Notes under the pieces: generated by a model | What the model saw: only the letters and a program-made list of their open reading frames with translations | The model's database searches: none | Told to the model about the DNA's origin: nothing | Shown: piece by piece, positions 16,172 through 56,953 of the stretch | Numbering within the stretch: the first letter of the stretch is position 1 | Layout of the letters: each line of letters starts with the position of its first letter | Assembly: GCF_003991195.1 (NCBI RefSeq) | Contig: NZ_RCWL01000001.1 | Coordinates: forward strand, 806,001-870,000 | Reading direction: 5' to 3' | Source of the DNA: Gynurincola endophyticus | GTDB taxonomy: Bacteria; Bacteroidota; Bacteroidia; Chitinophagales; Chitinophagaceae | DNA: 64,000 nt | Program-made: the position numbers and the translations under genes

Positions 16172-17299
16172 TTAACGTTCACTGCTGATATCGCTTACCA
16201 AACTCTTGTTCAGGCAATAATATCTGCCTGGTAAACACTGGATATAGTTGTTCATCTCGAGTAATAACAGCCTATGCGTTAAATCAGCCATTGAAACCGG
16301 TACTCTCTGTAGCAGGTCATCGAAATGTAAAAAACGTTGAACAGTCAAAAAATGTACAATTTCCTGTTCTTCTTTTGACAAGTGTGATAGTGAAATAAGA
16401 GGAATAACAGGAATACTTCCTGCAGCGGGCAGATAATGCTGAATTTGTTTCGGATGAGAAAGTATATCTGCCTGATGATTGACTATCAGTTGATTGGAGC
16501 CACTACTTTTGACATCAATTCATCTACCCGGCACGGCCAGTACATCTCTGTTATATTGTGCTGCAAAAGCGGCGGTACGGAGGCTACCTCCTTTTTCTCC
16601 ACTTTCAATAACAACCAATAACTTGCACCAGCCGGCAATAATGCGATTGCGCGCTGAAAAATGATGCTTTTCAATTTTTACAGAGGGGGTATATTCTGAA
16701 ACAATAGCACCACCTTCTGCTATAATCTTGTCGGCTAATCCACGATGAACGGCAGGGTACATGTATTTGAAACCGTGCGCCAGGATCGCAATAGTCGGTA
16801 TTTTCAGGTTTATTGCATGCTGATGGGCTGTGGCATCGATACCGATCGCTAATCCTGAAATGATATATATCGGGTAACCTTTCGAATAATTCAGTAATTG
16901 TTGAGTTGAAATAGTACCATAATCGCTGGGAGTGCGTGTACCGACAATACCGATTCCCATCGATTCAGAAGCCGGTAAACAACCTCTTACAAATAATACA
17001 ATTGGAGCATCAGGACATTCTTTTAGCAAAACCGGATATGCGGTTGAATGAAAAGACAATATTTCTGCGTGCAGGCTTTCTAATGTTTTTAATTCATCGT
17101 CAATTTCTTTTCAATTGTTGAAATTGATCAGATCAACGAGTAACCGTCTTTTAGCAAAAGGAGATTGTTTTAATGATTTGATCTCCTCAAAGACCGCTTG
17201 TGCGGATCCATACTCTTCCAGCAATATTCTTTTAGTAATATTGCCGATCCCTTTTACACGTTGTAATGCCAGTAAATGTTTTAACTCGTTCTGCATCAT
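16172..17299 (-). CDS. dprA: DNA processing protein DprA with two in-frame UGA codons
   Basis: One continuous 376-codon frame with TGA at codon 63 (17113-17111) and codon 260 (16522-16520), and TAA only at the end. Length and domain order match intact DprA: N-terminal helix-hairpin-helix ([19 protein letters not shown]), Rossmann-like domain with [37 protein letters not shown] and ESGEKGGSL, then the DprA winged helix ([20 protein letters not shown]). DprA binds incoming single-stranded DNA and loads RecA during natural transformation. The first TGA lies in N-[UGA]-KEIDDEL, before the Rossmann domain; the second follows AVPGR. Both flanks stay in frame with conserved motifs, so read-through or recoding is more likely than decay. 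It sits 32 bp after the OmpA-family gene. Confidence 0.85.
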
Positions 17300-17331
17300 A
17301 TCTAATTATACGTATGCAGTACGTGTTCGGA

Positions 17332-26162: not shown

Positions 26163-26184
26163 TAAGTATTATAAAACCTACTTA
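26163..26184. promoter_or_regulatory. Inverted repeat abutting the start codon of the UGA operon
   Basis: TAAGTA (26163-26168) and TACTTA (26179-26184) flank a 10-nt spacer. The right arm overlaps the first base of the ATG. A second dyad, CTGTCA ... TGACAG, lies about 40 bp upstream. These could be an operator or a translation-controlling hairpin; no function is shown. Confidence 0.35.
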
Positions 26185-26966
26185 TGATTATTCTTCTTTT
26201 GTTTTGACTGCTAGTAAGCCTGAATGTGTTTTCTCAGCCATATTTTTATGCCGGTGAAAGAGCTGCTTTACTGAGTGCACCCTTTGCATTGTATACATCA
26301 CGTTATCATGCTACACTTTATCCCATAAATGAAAAAATAAAAACTGTTTTATGAATGAATAGTCGTTTTGGAATAAAAGAACTGAATACTGTATGTGCGG
26401 TTATACAACTACAGCAGCAAAGCTATAATATGACGTTCATGGCCGAATGACCCCTAACCCAGAACCTGCTCTCTCAAAAATATTATTGGTTGACCGGGCG
26501 AAATTTTAACCGGTTTCATTTGAAAACTTATGCTTCCCTGCAACAAAACTGAATGGAAAATAATGTTTCTAAATACAAAATCAATACTGGTATAATGACA
26601 GCTTTTAAAATAAATGAAAACAGCGAAATGGGAATTCATTGAATGAATATCGAAAACCTGTTTCAACAGCAACTGTCCGGAAAAGGATATGGTATAATGG
26701 CTTATCAGACAATGCAACTGGATTCAATTTGAAAGTTAGGTGTACAACTCAACTGGTTCAGTAACGAGCGAATACTGGTTCATTTACTGACTGGTTGGCA
26801 ACTGAATGATCATCTTCAATGAATTATTGAAGTACCGTTGTTTAATTTCCAAATATCAAATTCATTTATGATTGAAATCAATCGTGCTAAAACACTGGTT
26901 AATATTGTATGACATCCGTCTTTAGGTTGGAGTTTATCTGCAGGCTTAACTTTAAAAAAAATGTAA
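26184..26966 (+). CDS. Secreted protein of unknown function with eight in-frame UGA codons (first gene of the UGA operon)
   Basis: A 261-codon frame from ATG 26184 to TAA 26964-26966. TGA occurs at codons 8, 57, 89, 123, 153, 183, 213 and 243, and no TAA or TAG occurs before the end. Codons 1-18 read MIILLLF-[UGA]-LLVSLNVFSQ, a good signal peptide if UGA is a hydrophobic residue. The remainder has alternating strands (RFGIKELNTVCAVIQLQQ, EMGIH, HPSLGWSLSAGLTL) and looks like an outer-membrane or periplasmic beta protein. I recognise no named family with confidence. Four Trp codons are TGG. The stop overlaps the next start (TAATG), indicating translational coupling. UGA as Trp is inferred from the aromatic/hydrophobic contexts, not proven. 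Confidence 0.8.
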
Positions 26967-28906
26967 TGAAGAGAATTGTATTGCTTTTGATGATTATTAT
27001 CAGTAAACTTTCTTATGCACAGGAACAGAATTCTTCGAATGATATCGTATATGAAGAGTTATTGTATGATCTGGAATTAGATGAGGAGGAATGAAGAAAA
27101 CTATCTTTCCGAAAATCAATTAACCGGATAACGGAAAATGAGCTGAAGCAGTTTAAATTATTTACTACCGAACAAATAACGGAATTAATAAATTTAAGAA
27201 AACAGTTGAGAAAAATTTCTGACTGACAGCAACTGGTTCATTTAGAAAAATGAACTATTCGGCAAATACAATACCTGAAGCTTGTTTGTAAAATAGAAGA
27301 AGATGTAAATGAGTTTAAACAGGAAAGTAAAGGGTACTGAATGTGAGTAAATGTTGTACAGCGTAATTATAATAATCAGGGAAGAATGCTTAATAATAAT
27401 TGGGTAGGAGATGATATCAGATCTTATATGAAGGTGAAAACACCATTGTATAAGAATATTAATATGGGCATTGCAATTGAAAAAGACAGGGGTGAAAAAT
27501 GATGCGATCAGTCGCTGCCGTTAAAATTTGATCATGTTGCCGGCTTTTTACACTATTACAATCCCAATAATAATGCTAATATATTTGTTGGTAATTATCA
27601 GGTAAGAATGGCGCAGGGGCTTATTTTATGGCAAGGATACGGCGTGTATGGTGATTTGGCTTTAAGCTTAGAAAAACAATCCTCTCCAATAACTGCTTAT
27701 GCATCAAGTAGTGAAACTAATTTTATGAAAGGCATTGCTATTAATAAGGCAATGGGTAACATAGAATTAACTGCTTTCTATAATCGTCAGAAATTGGATG
27801 CTAATCTGGATGAATTTGAGGAACAGGTATTTGTTCGGTCGATGCGTATTTCAGGACTGCATCAAACGACCAATGATTTGCAGAACAGGCAAAATATTAC
27901 TTATCAATCAAATGGAGTGAGTCTGAAGTACACAAAACAGCATTGAACTTTACAACTTAATCAGGTGAACCATAGTTTTTCCAAACCGTTCAGAAATGAT
28001 AGCCGTATCGATGTACTACCTCAAAATCAGATTACTTCAAACTTTTTTAATGGAAGTATCTTTACGTCTTTATCTATTAAAAATCATCATTTATATACTG
28101 AGGTAGCAGTAGCCGGAAATAAGAGTGTTGCTTATCTGGCAGGTTGAACCAGTGCAATAGGTTTAAACTTGTCTGTACAAAATTTATACTTTCATTTACC
28201 TATAGATTTTAAGAGTTTTAATGCTAATATGATTTATGCTGGTAGTGAGGTTTATAATAAAACCGGATGAATGATCAATATTCACTGAAAAAACAAATAC
28301 AGTAGTTTTTTTTATCAATCTTCTGTAATGTTTCAGCCCTGGTGAAAATATCAGATAAGCAGTAGTTCGGTGGTATGAAAACAGCAGACGAATGTTGAAC
28401 GTCAAATAAATAAAAAATTTTTAGCAGCATTCAGGTTACAGGTCAATGAAAAAAATGATCACTTGTTTGATACTGCCGGCAAACATCAAAGAGAGGTAAT
28501 GTTTAAATACAGACTGCATCTGAAATATGATTTTTGGGAGAATTGACAAGCTCAGTTCCGTAGCGAGTGGGTAACGACAACCGGATTGACAGAAGGTGGA
28601 GTGCTCCAGTTTGCGCAACTGAAAACAAAATTGAAACGTTCGTGGATGTTAGAAGTCAGGGTTACCTATTTTGACGTTCCTGCTTATCATGACCGCATAT
28701 ATGCGCTGGAACGTGAAGGTTTATGGTTAAACAGGTTTTATTTTTATTATGGCAGAGGATATGCAGCCTCTTTATTAATAAATAAAAAGTGAAAGGTGGG
28801 GCAGAATCGGTCATTGCAAATGTATTGTCGTGCTAAATTAGAAAGACAAACGAATGATAATAAAACAAGTGAGCGTTTATTAACAGTGCAATGGGTTTTA
28901 GAATAG
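26966..28906 (+). CDS. Large secreted protein with probable ComEA-like N-terminus and fourteen in-frame UGA codons (second gene of the UGA operon)
   Basis: A 647-codon frame, ATG 26966 to TAG 28904-28906. TGA occurs at codons 43, 87, 96, 125, 127, 179, 327, 394, 435, 441, 460, 471, 527 and 609; no other stop and no frameshift. Eight Trp are TGG. A signal peptide (MKRIVLLLMIIISKLSYAQ) is followed by an acidic stretch and a degenerate helix-hairpin-helix-like region (RKSINRITENELKQFKLF, about 44-110). This resembles the N-terminus of Bacteroidota helix-hairpin-helix/ComEA-type proteins. The rest is rich in beta strands (NYQVRMAQGLILWQGYGVYG, LNRFYFYYGRGYAASLLINK) as in an outer-membrane barrel. 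DNA binding or uptake is a guess from the N-terminus only. The unbroken frame over 1.9 kb argues for protein-level selection. Confidence 0.8.
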
Positions 28907-29271: not shown

Positions 29272-29306
29272 AACGGATATGTTTGACCTGGTTAAACATA
29301 TCCGTT
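29272..29306. terminator. Convergent terminator whose right arm encodes the radC C-terminus
   Basis: 13-bp perfect stem AACGGATATGTTT / AAACATATCCGTT with a 9-nt loop. The right arm overlaps the radC stop and encodes its last residues (ENGYV). It serves the DUF3467 gene on + and probably radC on -. Confidence 0.85.
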
Positions 29307-29975
29307 TTCTGCAAAAGAATAATATTGTTCGGTAGTAATAATCAGATGATCAATTACTGATAAATCGAGTAGTTGAGCTGCCTGAGAAAGTTTTCGGGTT
29401 AATCGTATATCTGCATCACTCGGTGCTGCATTTCCCGAAGGATGATTGTGACATAATATTAATTTAATAGCTCCCAGCTCTAATGCCCTTTTAAAAATAA
29501 TTCTGGGATCGGCAATAGTAGCAGTAATACTCCCTTCTGATAAATTCTCAAAGCTAATCACCTTGTTAGCATTGTTAAGAAAAATAACATGAAATACCTC
29601 ATAAGGAAAAAACTGAATACTCGCTTTTGCAAATTCAATAGCAGACTTTGGATCTGAAATTTTTGAGGAAGGAATTTTCTCTGTGATCATAAAACGTTTC
29701 GCCAGCTCAATGCAGGCAATGATTTTTGCAGCTTTGGTAACCCCGATTCCATTCAGCTGCATTAACTCCTGAATGGTTAGTTGTGATAACCTGATCAGAT
29801 TGTTTTGCGATTTACCCAGCAGATCATAAGCTAACCCCAGTGCACTTTTTTGTTTAGAACCCTGATTAATAATAACTGCCAATAACTCCGCGTTACTGAT
29901 AAGGTGAGGACGGGTGGATAAGAGTTTTTCTCGAGGTTGATCAAACTTACTCCAGTTCTTTATAGATGTTTTCAT
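29292..29975 (-). CDS. radC: RadC-family JAB/MPN protein
   Basis: 227 residues, the usual RadC (DUF2466) length. An N-terminal UPF0758 helix-hairpin-helix (TIQELMQLNGIGVTKAAKII, about 63-82) precedes the JAMM metalloprotease-like domain. The zinc motif HNHPSGNAAPSDAD is intact at about 174-187 with an upstream conserved glutamate. The biological role remains unsettled; the original link to DNA repair in E. coli was withdrawn. It is divergent from a tiny membrane protein, with a dyad between them, and its tail forms part of a shared terminator. Confidence 0.95.
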   Translation of the reverse strand: MKTSIKNWSKFDQPREKLLSTRPHLISNAELLAVIINQGSKQKSALGLAYDLLGKSQNNLIRLSQLTIQELMQLNGIGVTKAAKIIACIELAKRFMITEKIPSSKISDPKSAIEFAKASIQFFPYEVFHVIFLNNANKVISFENLSEGSITATIADPRIIFKRALELGAIKLILCHNHPSGNAAPSDADIRLTRKLSQAAQLLDLSVIDHLIITTEQYYSFAENGYV

Positions 29976-56117: not shown

Positions 56118-56534
56118 ATGATAATGATTTTAATAAACTCGTCTTCTTTAAAAGAAATTGAACAGGCTTACGAAAAAGCTGAAAATCTGCTGCATGAAAA
56201 AGAATATAGTCGCTCGGTCGTTACCAAAGATATTAAGGAACTGGTAAAACAAATTATTGATACTAAATGGGTGTTGATAGAAGAAATAGAGAAGGACTTC
56301 AGTTTGTTTGATATCCAGTCGGCAAAAGATACCATTGTTGGTTTATTTCCGCTGGTTATCAGTTATGAACATCTAAGAGATAGATTGAAGGTTCATCCAG
56401 TTATAAAAATCAAAATTCGGTTTTTATTAAATGAACTGCAACTGGTTACCGGAGAATTAAAAGCTCTGATGAGCGATTTGGAACGATACAAAGTGAGTGA
56501 TTGTTCAGACCTCATCAATCAACTTTATGAGTAA
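56118..56534 (+). CDS. 138-residue protein of unknown function, candidate antitoxin
   Basis: Helical, charged protein (KEIEQAYEKAENLLHEKEYS) without a signal peptide. I recognise no family. Its stop overlaps the start of the toxin-like frame at 56527 by eight bases, the organisation of a toxin-antitoxin pair in which the first gene is the antitoxin. Its other half is broken. No DNA-binding motif is obvious. The ATG at 56118 and another at 56124 are both possible starts. Confidence 0.6.
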   Translation: MIMILINSSSLKEIEQAYEKAENLLHEKEYSRSVVTKDIKELVKQIIDTKWVLIEEIEKDFSLFDIQSAKDTIVGLFPLVISYEHLRDRLKVHPVIKIKIRFLLNELQLVTGELKALMSDLERYKVSDCSDLINQLYE

Positions 56535-56953
56535 AGTAACCGTAAAAATATTCACTACCGATTTATTCAGGAAAAGTATACGTAAGTGTGAAAAGCAAGA
56601 TGCCTACTCTAACAGTTATAATTGATGTCTGAAACCTCTTTTTGGATAAAACAATTGAAGAAATCATCAGCTGACCTGTATTGCTTTCCATCAAAGGGCA
56701 GTTCTTCTTTATTAAATCAAGAATTGTAAATTCAAAATCTGGTAAAGGAAAAAGTGCTGGTTATAGAATATATTTTTTCGTTAATAAAAATAATTCATGT
56801 ATTTATTTACTGGATTTTTATCCTAAAACAGGAAAATATGGGAAACCTGATCTTACGAAAATGCAGGAAAAGTTAATTGTAAAATCTTTTCGTGAAGAGT
56901 TTGCTTCAGGTACTTTAGAGCTATTCTTAAAAAAACGGGAAATAGGAAAATAA
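56527..56953 (+). pseudogene. Broken RelE/HigB-like toxin gene
   Basis: The first 25 codons (MSKVTVKIFTTDLFRKSIRK) continue into another frame after an indel near 56600, where DKTIEEIIS and then KSRIVNSKSGKGKSAGYRIY, FFVNKNNSCIYLLDFYPKTG and KPDLTKMQEKLI appear. The second part is the RelE-like core, with its basic GKGKSAGYR motif. The second frame also contains two TGA codons (around 56633 and 56672). A further frame (ADLYCFPSKGSSS) suggests another indel. Because frameshifts are present it is scored as a pseudogene, and the TGAs are not counted as recoding evidence. Confidence 0.7.

Follow-up and report, generated by a model that had tools for sequence, protein, structure and literature searches.

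In-frame UGA codons, probably read as tryptophan, in a gene set of Gynurincola endophyticus concerned mainly with natural transformation

We analysed a stretch of 64,000 nucleotides (hereafter the window; contig NZ_RCWL01000001.1, positions 806,001 to 870,000) from the genome of Gynurincola endophyticus, a member of the Chitinophagaceae (Bacteroidota), and in it a two-gene operon (genes 1 and 2) whose frames are interrupted by the stop codon TGA and by no other. In the part of the genome that was read, TGA lies within the intact frames of a small gene set, homologue profiles favour tryptophan (W) over the scored sites, TGA remains a stop elsewhere, and the sense and stop TGA codons stand in different contexts. 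Judged from these sequences, it is highly probable that UGA is translated in these genes, and very probably it is translated as tryptophan. The fuller reading, in which UGA means tryptophan in one gene set, mainly for natural transformation, with the standard code elsewhere, with the ordinary tRNA-Trp(CCA) as reader and with the number of UGA codons acting as a steep lock, seems to us on balance probable. The genome has 4,525,614 bases (99.9% complete, a draft in 32 contigs), of which 2.064 Mb were read for TGA-interrupted frames; the coordinates of genes 1 and 2, dprA and their upstream motifs are given in the table.

A sequence-only reading of the operon had described 22 in-frame TGA codons as its sole interruptions, and the two frames indeed hold 8 and 14 TGA without any TAA, TAG or frameshift. 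The TAATG overlap of the two genes is intact as described, codon 8 of the apparent signal peptide of gene 1 is a TGA, and TGG is used beside TGA (four times in gene 1, eight times in gene 2). That an all-TGA pattern is unlikely by chance stands, but the figure of (1/3)^22 offered for it does not, as it supposes equal weights for the three stops; with the real codon composition of genes 1 and 2, TGA makes up ~20-21% of all one-step changes that create a stop, and 22 TGA out of 22 has a probability of ~2e-16 to 2e-15, a value that is post hoc because both frames were chosen for being TGA-only.

Gene 1 matched no Pfam family, and no homologue of it was found within ~1.5 kb of 29 gene-2 homologues in relatives. 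Gene 2 itself likewise gave no Pfam match; since a homologue (L055) carries PF12836 HHH_3, we consider gene 2 to encode a helix-hairpin-helix (HHH) protein, with, as we read the sequence, a probable outer-membrane barrel. A structure predicted for it without an alignment had a predicted local distance difference test score (pLDDT) of 31 and was discarded. Homologues of gene 2 occur in 33 of 58 related genomes (22-28% identity), and no stop was reported within the matches. The combination of an HHH domain and a probable outer-membrane barrel in gene 2 and its homologues (L051-L079) makes this protein a candidate for the passage of DNA through the outer membrane of Bacteroidota.

The operon turned out to be part of something larger, as further uptake genes carry in-frame TGA, including dprA in the same window. 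DprA is the sole PF02481 match in the genome, and a whole-genome search for ComEC gave one match, interrupted by TGA only (5 TGA in 638 codons); a single copy each of comEC and dprA was thus found. Together with comM, comF, a comEA-like gene, a DUF2851 gene and the small gene upstream of it, yraN and a gene for a secreted protein which we take to be S1/P1-like from its motifs (Pfam, NCBIfam and PDB gave no match), the eleven uptake or uptake-associated genes hold 52 TGA and 39 TGG in 3,886 codons, and end in six TAA and five TAG. In the gene for the small protein the one TGA may be the genuine stop; without that gene there are 51 TGA in ten genes. Random decay would give 52 TGA out of 52 with a probability of ~1e-32 or less. 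Where compared, the frames have homologue-like lengths, with 431 amino acids for DUF2851 against open frames of 419-477 in full-length homologues, and 298 for the S1/P1-like protein against 289-438 in homologues, fragments apart. For comparison, the read sample contains 1,618 predicted genes of at least 80 codons under the standard bacterial code (table 11), with 7,683 TGG codons. In one scan for TGA frames 60 of 178 candidates were inspected, in another the top of each list; frames that looked antisense or joined (e.g., C12 448839 and C28 123563) were set aside by eye, genes with mixed stops would escape the search, and weakly scoring TGA genes may be missed. Analogous lists for TAA and TAG read-through consisted mostly of neighbouring genes in one frame and provided no clean control.

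Two regions of the window may be mentioned here. A RelE-like open reading frame (ORF; 56588-56953, plus strand; PF06296 only at E 0.08) has two TGA near its start and may be UGA-read or may have a later start; CGTATA stands at ~56071, before the partner ORF upstream of it (56118-56534). Between 40000 and 41289 (minus strand) there is no clear table-11 gene, and the open pieces in different minus frames may derive from a degraded gene, unlike the clean TGA genes.

For the identity of the inserted residue we relied on profile scoring of four genes, namely those with fetched homologues (29 each): gene 2, comEC, the DUF2851 gene and the S1/P1-like gene, which together account for 33 of the 52 TGA sites. 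After correction for residue background, W came out ahead of the next residue, F, by 46 nats over the 33 TGA columns, and it also led in the TGG columns; as a check, the method recovered 56 of 61 sense codons. Where at least 80% of the homologues have W, the codon here is TGA in six columns, TGG in nine and a different one in five. These results support the proposal of the sequence-only reading that UGA is translated here, most likely as Trp. Leucine was considered as well and rejected, as it leads only without the background correction, where TGG would be Leu too; with the correction W leads. At the three TGA sites of the YhcG gene, its own intact paralogue has W at two. Neither YraN nor ComF had a match in the PDB. 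No selenocysteine tRNA was found by ARAGORN at default thresholds, either among the 47 tRNA hits or in the 2.06 Mb, and the UGA columns fit Trp.

Elsewhere in the genome UGA retains its canonical meaning. A genome-wide UGA=Trp code (table 4) does not describe this organism, in which TGA ends 67 of 863 long ORFs and table 11 leaves the majority of the window's long genes uninterrupted. The share of TGA among stops is nevertheless low compared with 29 of 152 in relatives (61 loci, guanine-cytosine content 34-42%; p = 6e-5), the latter sample consisting of loci around searched genes with a shorter ORF length limit. The prfB gene for release factor 2 (RF2), whose integrity the sequence-only reading had suggested examining, is intact and scores over its cut-off, and it retains both the SPF and GGQ motifs and a CTT TGA C frameshift site. 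Among 1,182 ORFs, the 90 that end in TGA are followed by T at the next (+4) base in 56 cases, against 459 of 1092 for other stops (p = 2e-4), and by A in 15 cases, against 371 of 1092. A second stop within five codons follows TGA stops without an overlapping start in 17 of 45 cases, compared with 233 of 973 for other stops (p = 0.049), and TGA stops with an overlapping start in 19 of 45, compared with 22 of 119 (p = 0.0025). At another locus (L033, G000:C1:761707-765291) a release-factor-like gene, by its sequence presumably of PrfH type, stands beside a presumably RtcB-like gene.

In Riemerella, a transposon screen found ComEC, DprA, ComF, RecA, an HHH protein, a DUF1343 protein and two others to be essential for transformation, and mutants of YifB/ComM were reduced in transformation (PMC8459023). 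ComEC, DprA, ComF, an HHH protein and ComM of the Bacteroidota transformation set are all present in G. endophyticus, and all five carry TGA here, the HHH protein as a candidate counterpart. For DUF2851, the small protein, YraN, the S1/P1-like protein and genes 1 and 2 we infer a role in uptake from the shared coding and the partly shared upstream motif. Within the 2.06 Mb, the recoded stop is confined to a functional class of eleven uptake or associated genes, six of them linked to it in this way, plus the genes for YhcG and AbiEii. This fits the earlier suggestion of a set of genes that can be read only if UGA is decoded, most of the set being natural-transformation genes.

The coding is restricted to this lineage as far as relatives were searched. 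Within homologue matches in the 58 related genomes (own genome excluded), TGA was found in none of 33 genomes with gene 2, none of 50 with DUF2851 and none of 40 with the S1/P1-like protein; eight DUF2851 matches flag one TAA. For comEC, matched in 276 of 293 other genomes of the family, TGA occurs only in G. endophyticus and TAG in one other genome among the matches listed. Five comM loci were found in named relatives, including Parafilimonas (Chitinophagaceae), the best at 62% identity. A search for related loci with gene 2 yielded none, and there was no congener among the genomes searched.

No dedicated decoder emerged. The suppressor tRNA with a UCA anticodon, for which the sequence-only reading had proposed a search, was not found by any of the Rfam, ARAGORN, BLAST and pattern searches: none of 47 tRNAs has this anticodon (Rfam tRNA search with 150 of 315 first-look candidates scored, ARAGORN on all 47), ARAGORN on the 2.06 Mb gave none either and only noise (959 calls) under relaxed settings, and neither a BLAST search with tRNA-Trp nor a pattern of UCA anticodon plus T-arm (52 matches, 30 scanned) yielded a suppressor candidate. 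A second, divergent tRNA-Cys (L048, G000:C12:297785-297855) was rejected as decoder, its anticodon being GCA; as we read it, it has C rather than U at position 33. The single tRNA-Trp has the anticodon CCA, with A24 and a G27-U43 pair. A24 (G24A in Escherichia coli) is among the changes that favour UGA reading, and in E. coli a tRNA-Trp with a 4-bp anticodon stem reads UGA (PMC13092985). Every tRNA-Trp read from the same family (21 genomes, G. endophyticus among them) has A24, as does one from a different family. Four relatives (L139, L143, L144 and L146; genomes G010, G018, G009 and G001) have a tRNA-Trp(CCA) with a C27-U43 mismatch, i.e., a 4-bp anticodon stem, in addition to A24. An altered tRNA-Trp as a lineage-specific cause was rejected, as the molecule is nearly identical to that of the relatives.

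The context of the TGA codons was examined in 13 genes, YhcG and AbiEii included. The next base is A after 38 of 56 TGA but after only 7 of 44 TGG, a difference that persists without the window operon (p = 2e-5). Before A, TGA accounts for 38 of 45 W codons, close to the 304 of 386 for other A-ending codons (p = 0.44), whereas before the other bases it accounts for 18 of 55, compared with 519 of 773 (p = 6e-7). UGA is thus used freely before A and about half as often elsewhere, and real UGA stops prefer U. The E. coli tRNA-Trp misreads UGA when A follows, while a following U is a tight context (PMC5289835, citing Engelberg-Kulka 1981). This codon choice points to near-cognate reading, and the ordinary tRNA-Trp(CCA) is in our estimation a fairly likely near-cognate reader of UGA.

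The genes also share an upstream element in part. Among 6-mers, CGTATA is the most enriched within 100 bases upstream of the starts of TGA genes or operons (11 starts), with 6 of 11 against 29 of 981 controls (binomial 3e-7, or ~1e-3 when corrected for 4,096 words); the motif was first noticed by eye and then counted, and the 11 starts include YhcG and AbiEii, without which it is found at 5 of 9. It stands before dprA, comEC, comM, the S1/P1-like gene, the comEA-like gene and YhcG, in the variants CGTAAG before gene 1 and CGTATG before yraN, and is missing before comF, the small protein and AbiEii. Scans with the motif for further members of the regulon returned a heterogeneous set of genes, and among the matches listed none was clearly a decoder. 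The radC gene (window 29292-29975, minus strand), which adjoins the operon, has CGTATATATA upstream yet no TGA.

Features of the TGA genes (window coordinates unless another locus is named; lengths with UGA read as Trp)
Feature	Position	Strand	Length (amino acids)	TGA	TGG	Stop	Remarks
Gene 1	26184..26966	+	260	8	4	TAA	ATG start; small protein, probably exported
Gene 2	26966..28906	+	646	14	8	TAG	ATG start; HHH protein, probable outer-membrane barrel
Upstream motif CGTAAGTATTATAA	26161..26174	+					23 bases upstream of the gene 1 ATG; a variant of CGTATA, the shared motif
dprA	16172..17299	-	375	2 (codons 63, 260)	1		TIGR00732 over its cut-off
Upstream motif CGTATAATT	17304..17312	-					before dprA
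comM				1			
comF				2			NCBIfam ComF model below its curated cut-off
comEA-like				3			NCBIfam ComEA model below its curated cut-off
DUF2851			431	8			
Small protein				1			upstream of the DUF2851 gene
yraN				2			
S1/P1-like secreted protein			298	6			
YhcG/DUF1016 nuclease	L226:3805-4797 (G000:C29:63805-64797)			3			
AbiEii gene	L098:1227-2213			1			

How might such genes be expressed? In the mechanism we propose, the ordinary tRNA-Trp(CCA) would be the reader, its A24 and weak G27-U43 pair favouring the reading of UGA, best before A. Reading would become efficient only once the uptake genes are induced and RF2 is outcompeted, for instance through a shortage of RF2, which is a guess. The many UGA codons would then form a steep lock, since a gene with n UGA codons read at a per-codon efficiency r would yield product in proportion to ~r^n, so that a gene with 14 UGA makes product only with r near 1. 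That efficient reading is limited to the competent state, i.e., that a lock exists, is a proposition for which the sequence-based arguments seem to us evenly poised. More tentatively, the transformation regulon may be written in a second code, with competence, through a shift between RF2 and tRNA-Trp, acting as a reversible code switch whose steepness depends on how many UGA codons each gene contains.

A number of observations weigh against this reading. The tRNA-Trp does not explain the restriction to one lineage, because it is almost the same in relatives in which no TGA gene was seen, and RF2 looks normal. Other codons ending in a purine (R) also favour A before A; for AGR the effect is weaker genome-wide (odds ratio 3.0 against 11.2, z 2.6), but within the TGA genes it reaches a similar strength (32 of 34 against 34 of 55). 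Eight of the 33 scored TGA columns contain no W and on their own favour Leu, as would be expected from the earlier suggestion that some UGA codons replace other hydrophobic residues; codon 260 of dprA, a TGA, aligns with Ile in a solved DprA (3uqz). In gene 2 the commonest residue of the homologues is not W at 12 of the 14 TGA sites, both of the at least 80% W columns that kept Trp use TGG, and the protein is more diverged, with a median identity to its homologues of 0.21 compared with 0.27-0.39 among these, which could reflect relaxed selection. The gene for NamZ/DUF1343, a protein that Riemerella requires for transformation, is free of TGA here, and so is radC. YhcG and AbiEii carry TGA, and we know of no uptake set that includes them. 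In relatives, CGTATA shows no clear conservation upstream of the homologues (0, 2, 3 and 5 of 29 in four gene groups). Finally, the count of 52 out of 52 is biased, since most of the 11 genes were found via frames free of TAA and TAG, so that the absence of these stops is partly built in; comEC and dprA, which were also found by family searches without this condition, have TGA only.

The same data might be explained by a constitutively ambiguous code, in which UGA followed by A is read as Trp in all mRNAs at all times, TGA having been purged from well-expressed genes and kept in the little-expressed uptake genes, with no lock involved. UGAA behaving as a free synonym and UGAU as a preferred stop would agree with this, as would the more frequent second stop within five codons of TGA stops and the TGA in the YhcG and AbiEii genes. 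However, many of the ~1,618 genes sampled are presumably weakly expressed, and beyond the uptake set only YhcG, AbiEii and perhaps the RelE-like ORF carry TGA among the candidates listed (60 of 178); moreover, 14 UGA in one gene require near-complete reading, and we consider constitutive ambiguity unlikely. The recoding could also be as we describe but with another decoder, be it an undetected suppressor tRNA, editing of C34 to U in tRNA-Trp or A-to-I editing of the mRNA (UGA to UGI). Such a decoder would be welcome in that tRNA-Trp and RF2 show no lineage-specific cause, and the A-to-I editing of UAG in a fungal sexual-reproduction gene is a precedent for the logic (PMC4817773). Yet no UCA anticodon was seen among the 47 tRNAs (150 of 315 first-look candidates scored), BLAST and the UCA pattern (30 of 52 matches fetched) left no candidate, and A-to-I editing should rescue TAG as well, while the frames are without internal TAG, which was partly a search condition; we rate another decoder as rather unlikely.

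Alternatively, the uptake genes might be decaying in a lineage that is losing competence, with only TGA nonsense persisting as leakage at UGA preserves partial activity. Transitions from TGG to TGA are common and gene 2 is unusually diverged, as such decay would have it, but eleven intact frames with 52 TGA and, where compared, homologue-like lengths show neither mixed stops nor frameshifts (the search having partly selected for that), TGA before A reaches the A-ending share of other codons, the at least 80% W columns divide between TGA (6) and TGG (9), and a leak raised to the power of 14 leaves no function to select, all of which renders decay very improbable. A sequencing or assembly artefact, conceivable in a draft of 32 contigs from a single isolate, is hardly credible, as errors would hardly cluster in a single functional class, a single frame and a single codon across two contigs (C1 and C12; C29 with YhcG).

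If translated, the set differs from the known recoding systems with which it was compared. Phage late or lytic genes likewise form a functional class with in-frame recoded stops amid the standard code, and the switch is thought to time their expression (PMC10879173). These are phage replicons with suppressor tRNAs of their own (PMC10879173), whereas here chromosomal genes are concerned, UGA would become Trp and the preference for A at +4 is strong; homologues in 33, 50 and 40 of 58 cellular genomes, and in 276 of 293 for comEC, do not suggest a phage origin, nor was a suppressor tRNA found. In the genome-wide codes of Mycoplasma, Zinderia and others UGA equally means Trp, in Zinderia with only tRNA-Trp(CCA) and no UCA, and the top of the anticodon stem is unpaired in such systems (PMC13092985), unlike the G27-U43 pair of the tRNA-Trp described here; in G. 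endophyticus, moreover, UGA still serves as a stop, prfB has not been lost and the recoding would concern a small set of genes within 4.5 Mb. The misreading of UGA by normal tRNA-Trp before A (PMC5289835) involves the very decoder and context proposed here. In fungi, editing of UAG renders readable, at a specific stage, a gene of genetic exchange that is unreadable before (PMC4817773), but that is mRNA editing of UAG in fungi, and here the codon is UGA and no editing is known. The transformation machinery of Riemerella shares ComEC, DprA, ComF, an HHH protein and YifB/ComM, and in the excerpt of that study no in-frame stops are mentioned (PMC8459023). In the literature searched (top-ranked titles and abstracts, with preprints and most subscription papers outside the scope) we found nothing on UGA in competence genes and no cellular regulon in which a stop codon regularly serves as a sense codon but retains its stop function in all other genes. 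The fungal editing reportedly restores the codon to Trp. To our knowledge, misreading of UGA by tRNA-Trp is known as leakiness or readthrough and not as the reading of 1-14 sense codons per gene. Each known kind of recoding that was compared lacks at least one of its defining features here.

Should these genes be translated, a change of the code would have been caught within a single gene set, possibly at the start of a reassignment, and a new kind of expression control would be at hand. Annotation with table 11 can then mistake working copies of comEC, dprA, comF and others for pseudogenes, and the strain for a non-competent one. The set also offers candidate uptake proteins in Bacteroidota, i.e., the outer-membrane HHH protein, DUF2851, YraN and the secreted S1/P1-like protein, for a phylum in which, according to work on Riemerella, the route of DNA across the outer membrane is still speculative (PMC8459023). 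If the proposed reading is true, genetic exchange in this bacterium would be locked behind a changed reading of the code.

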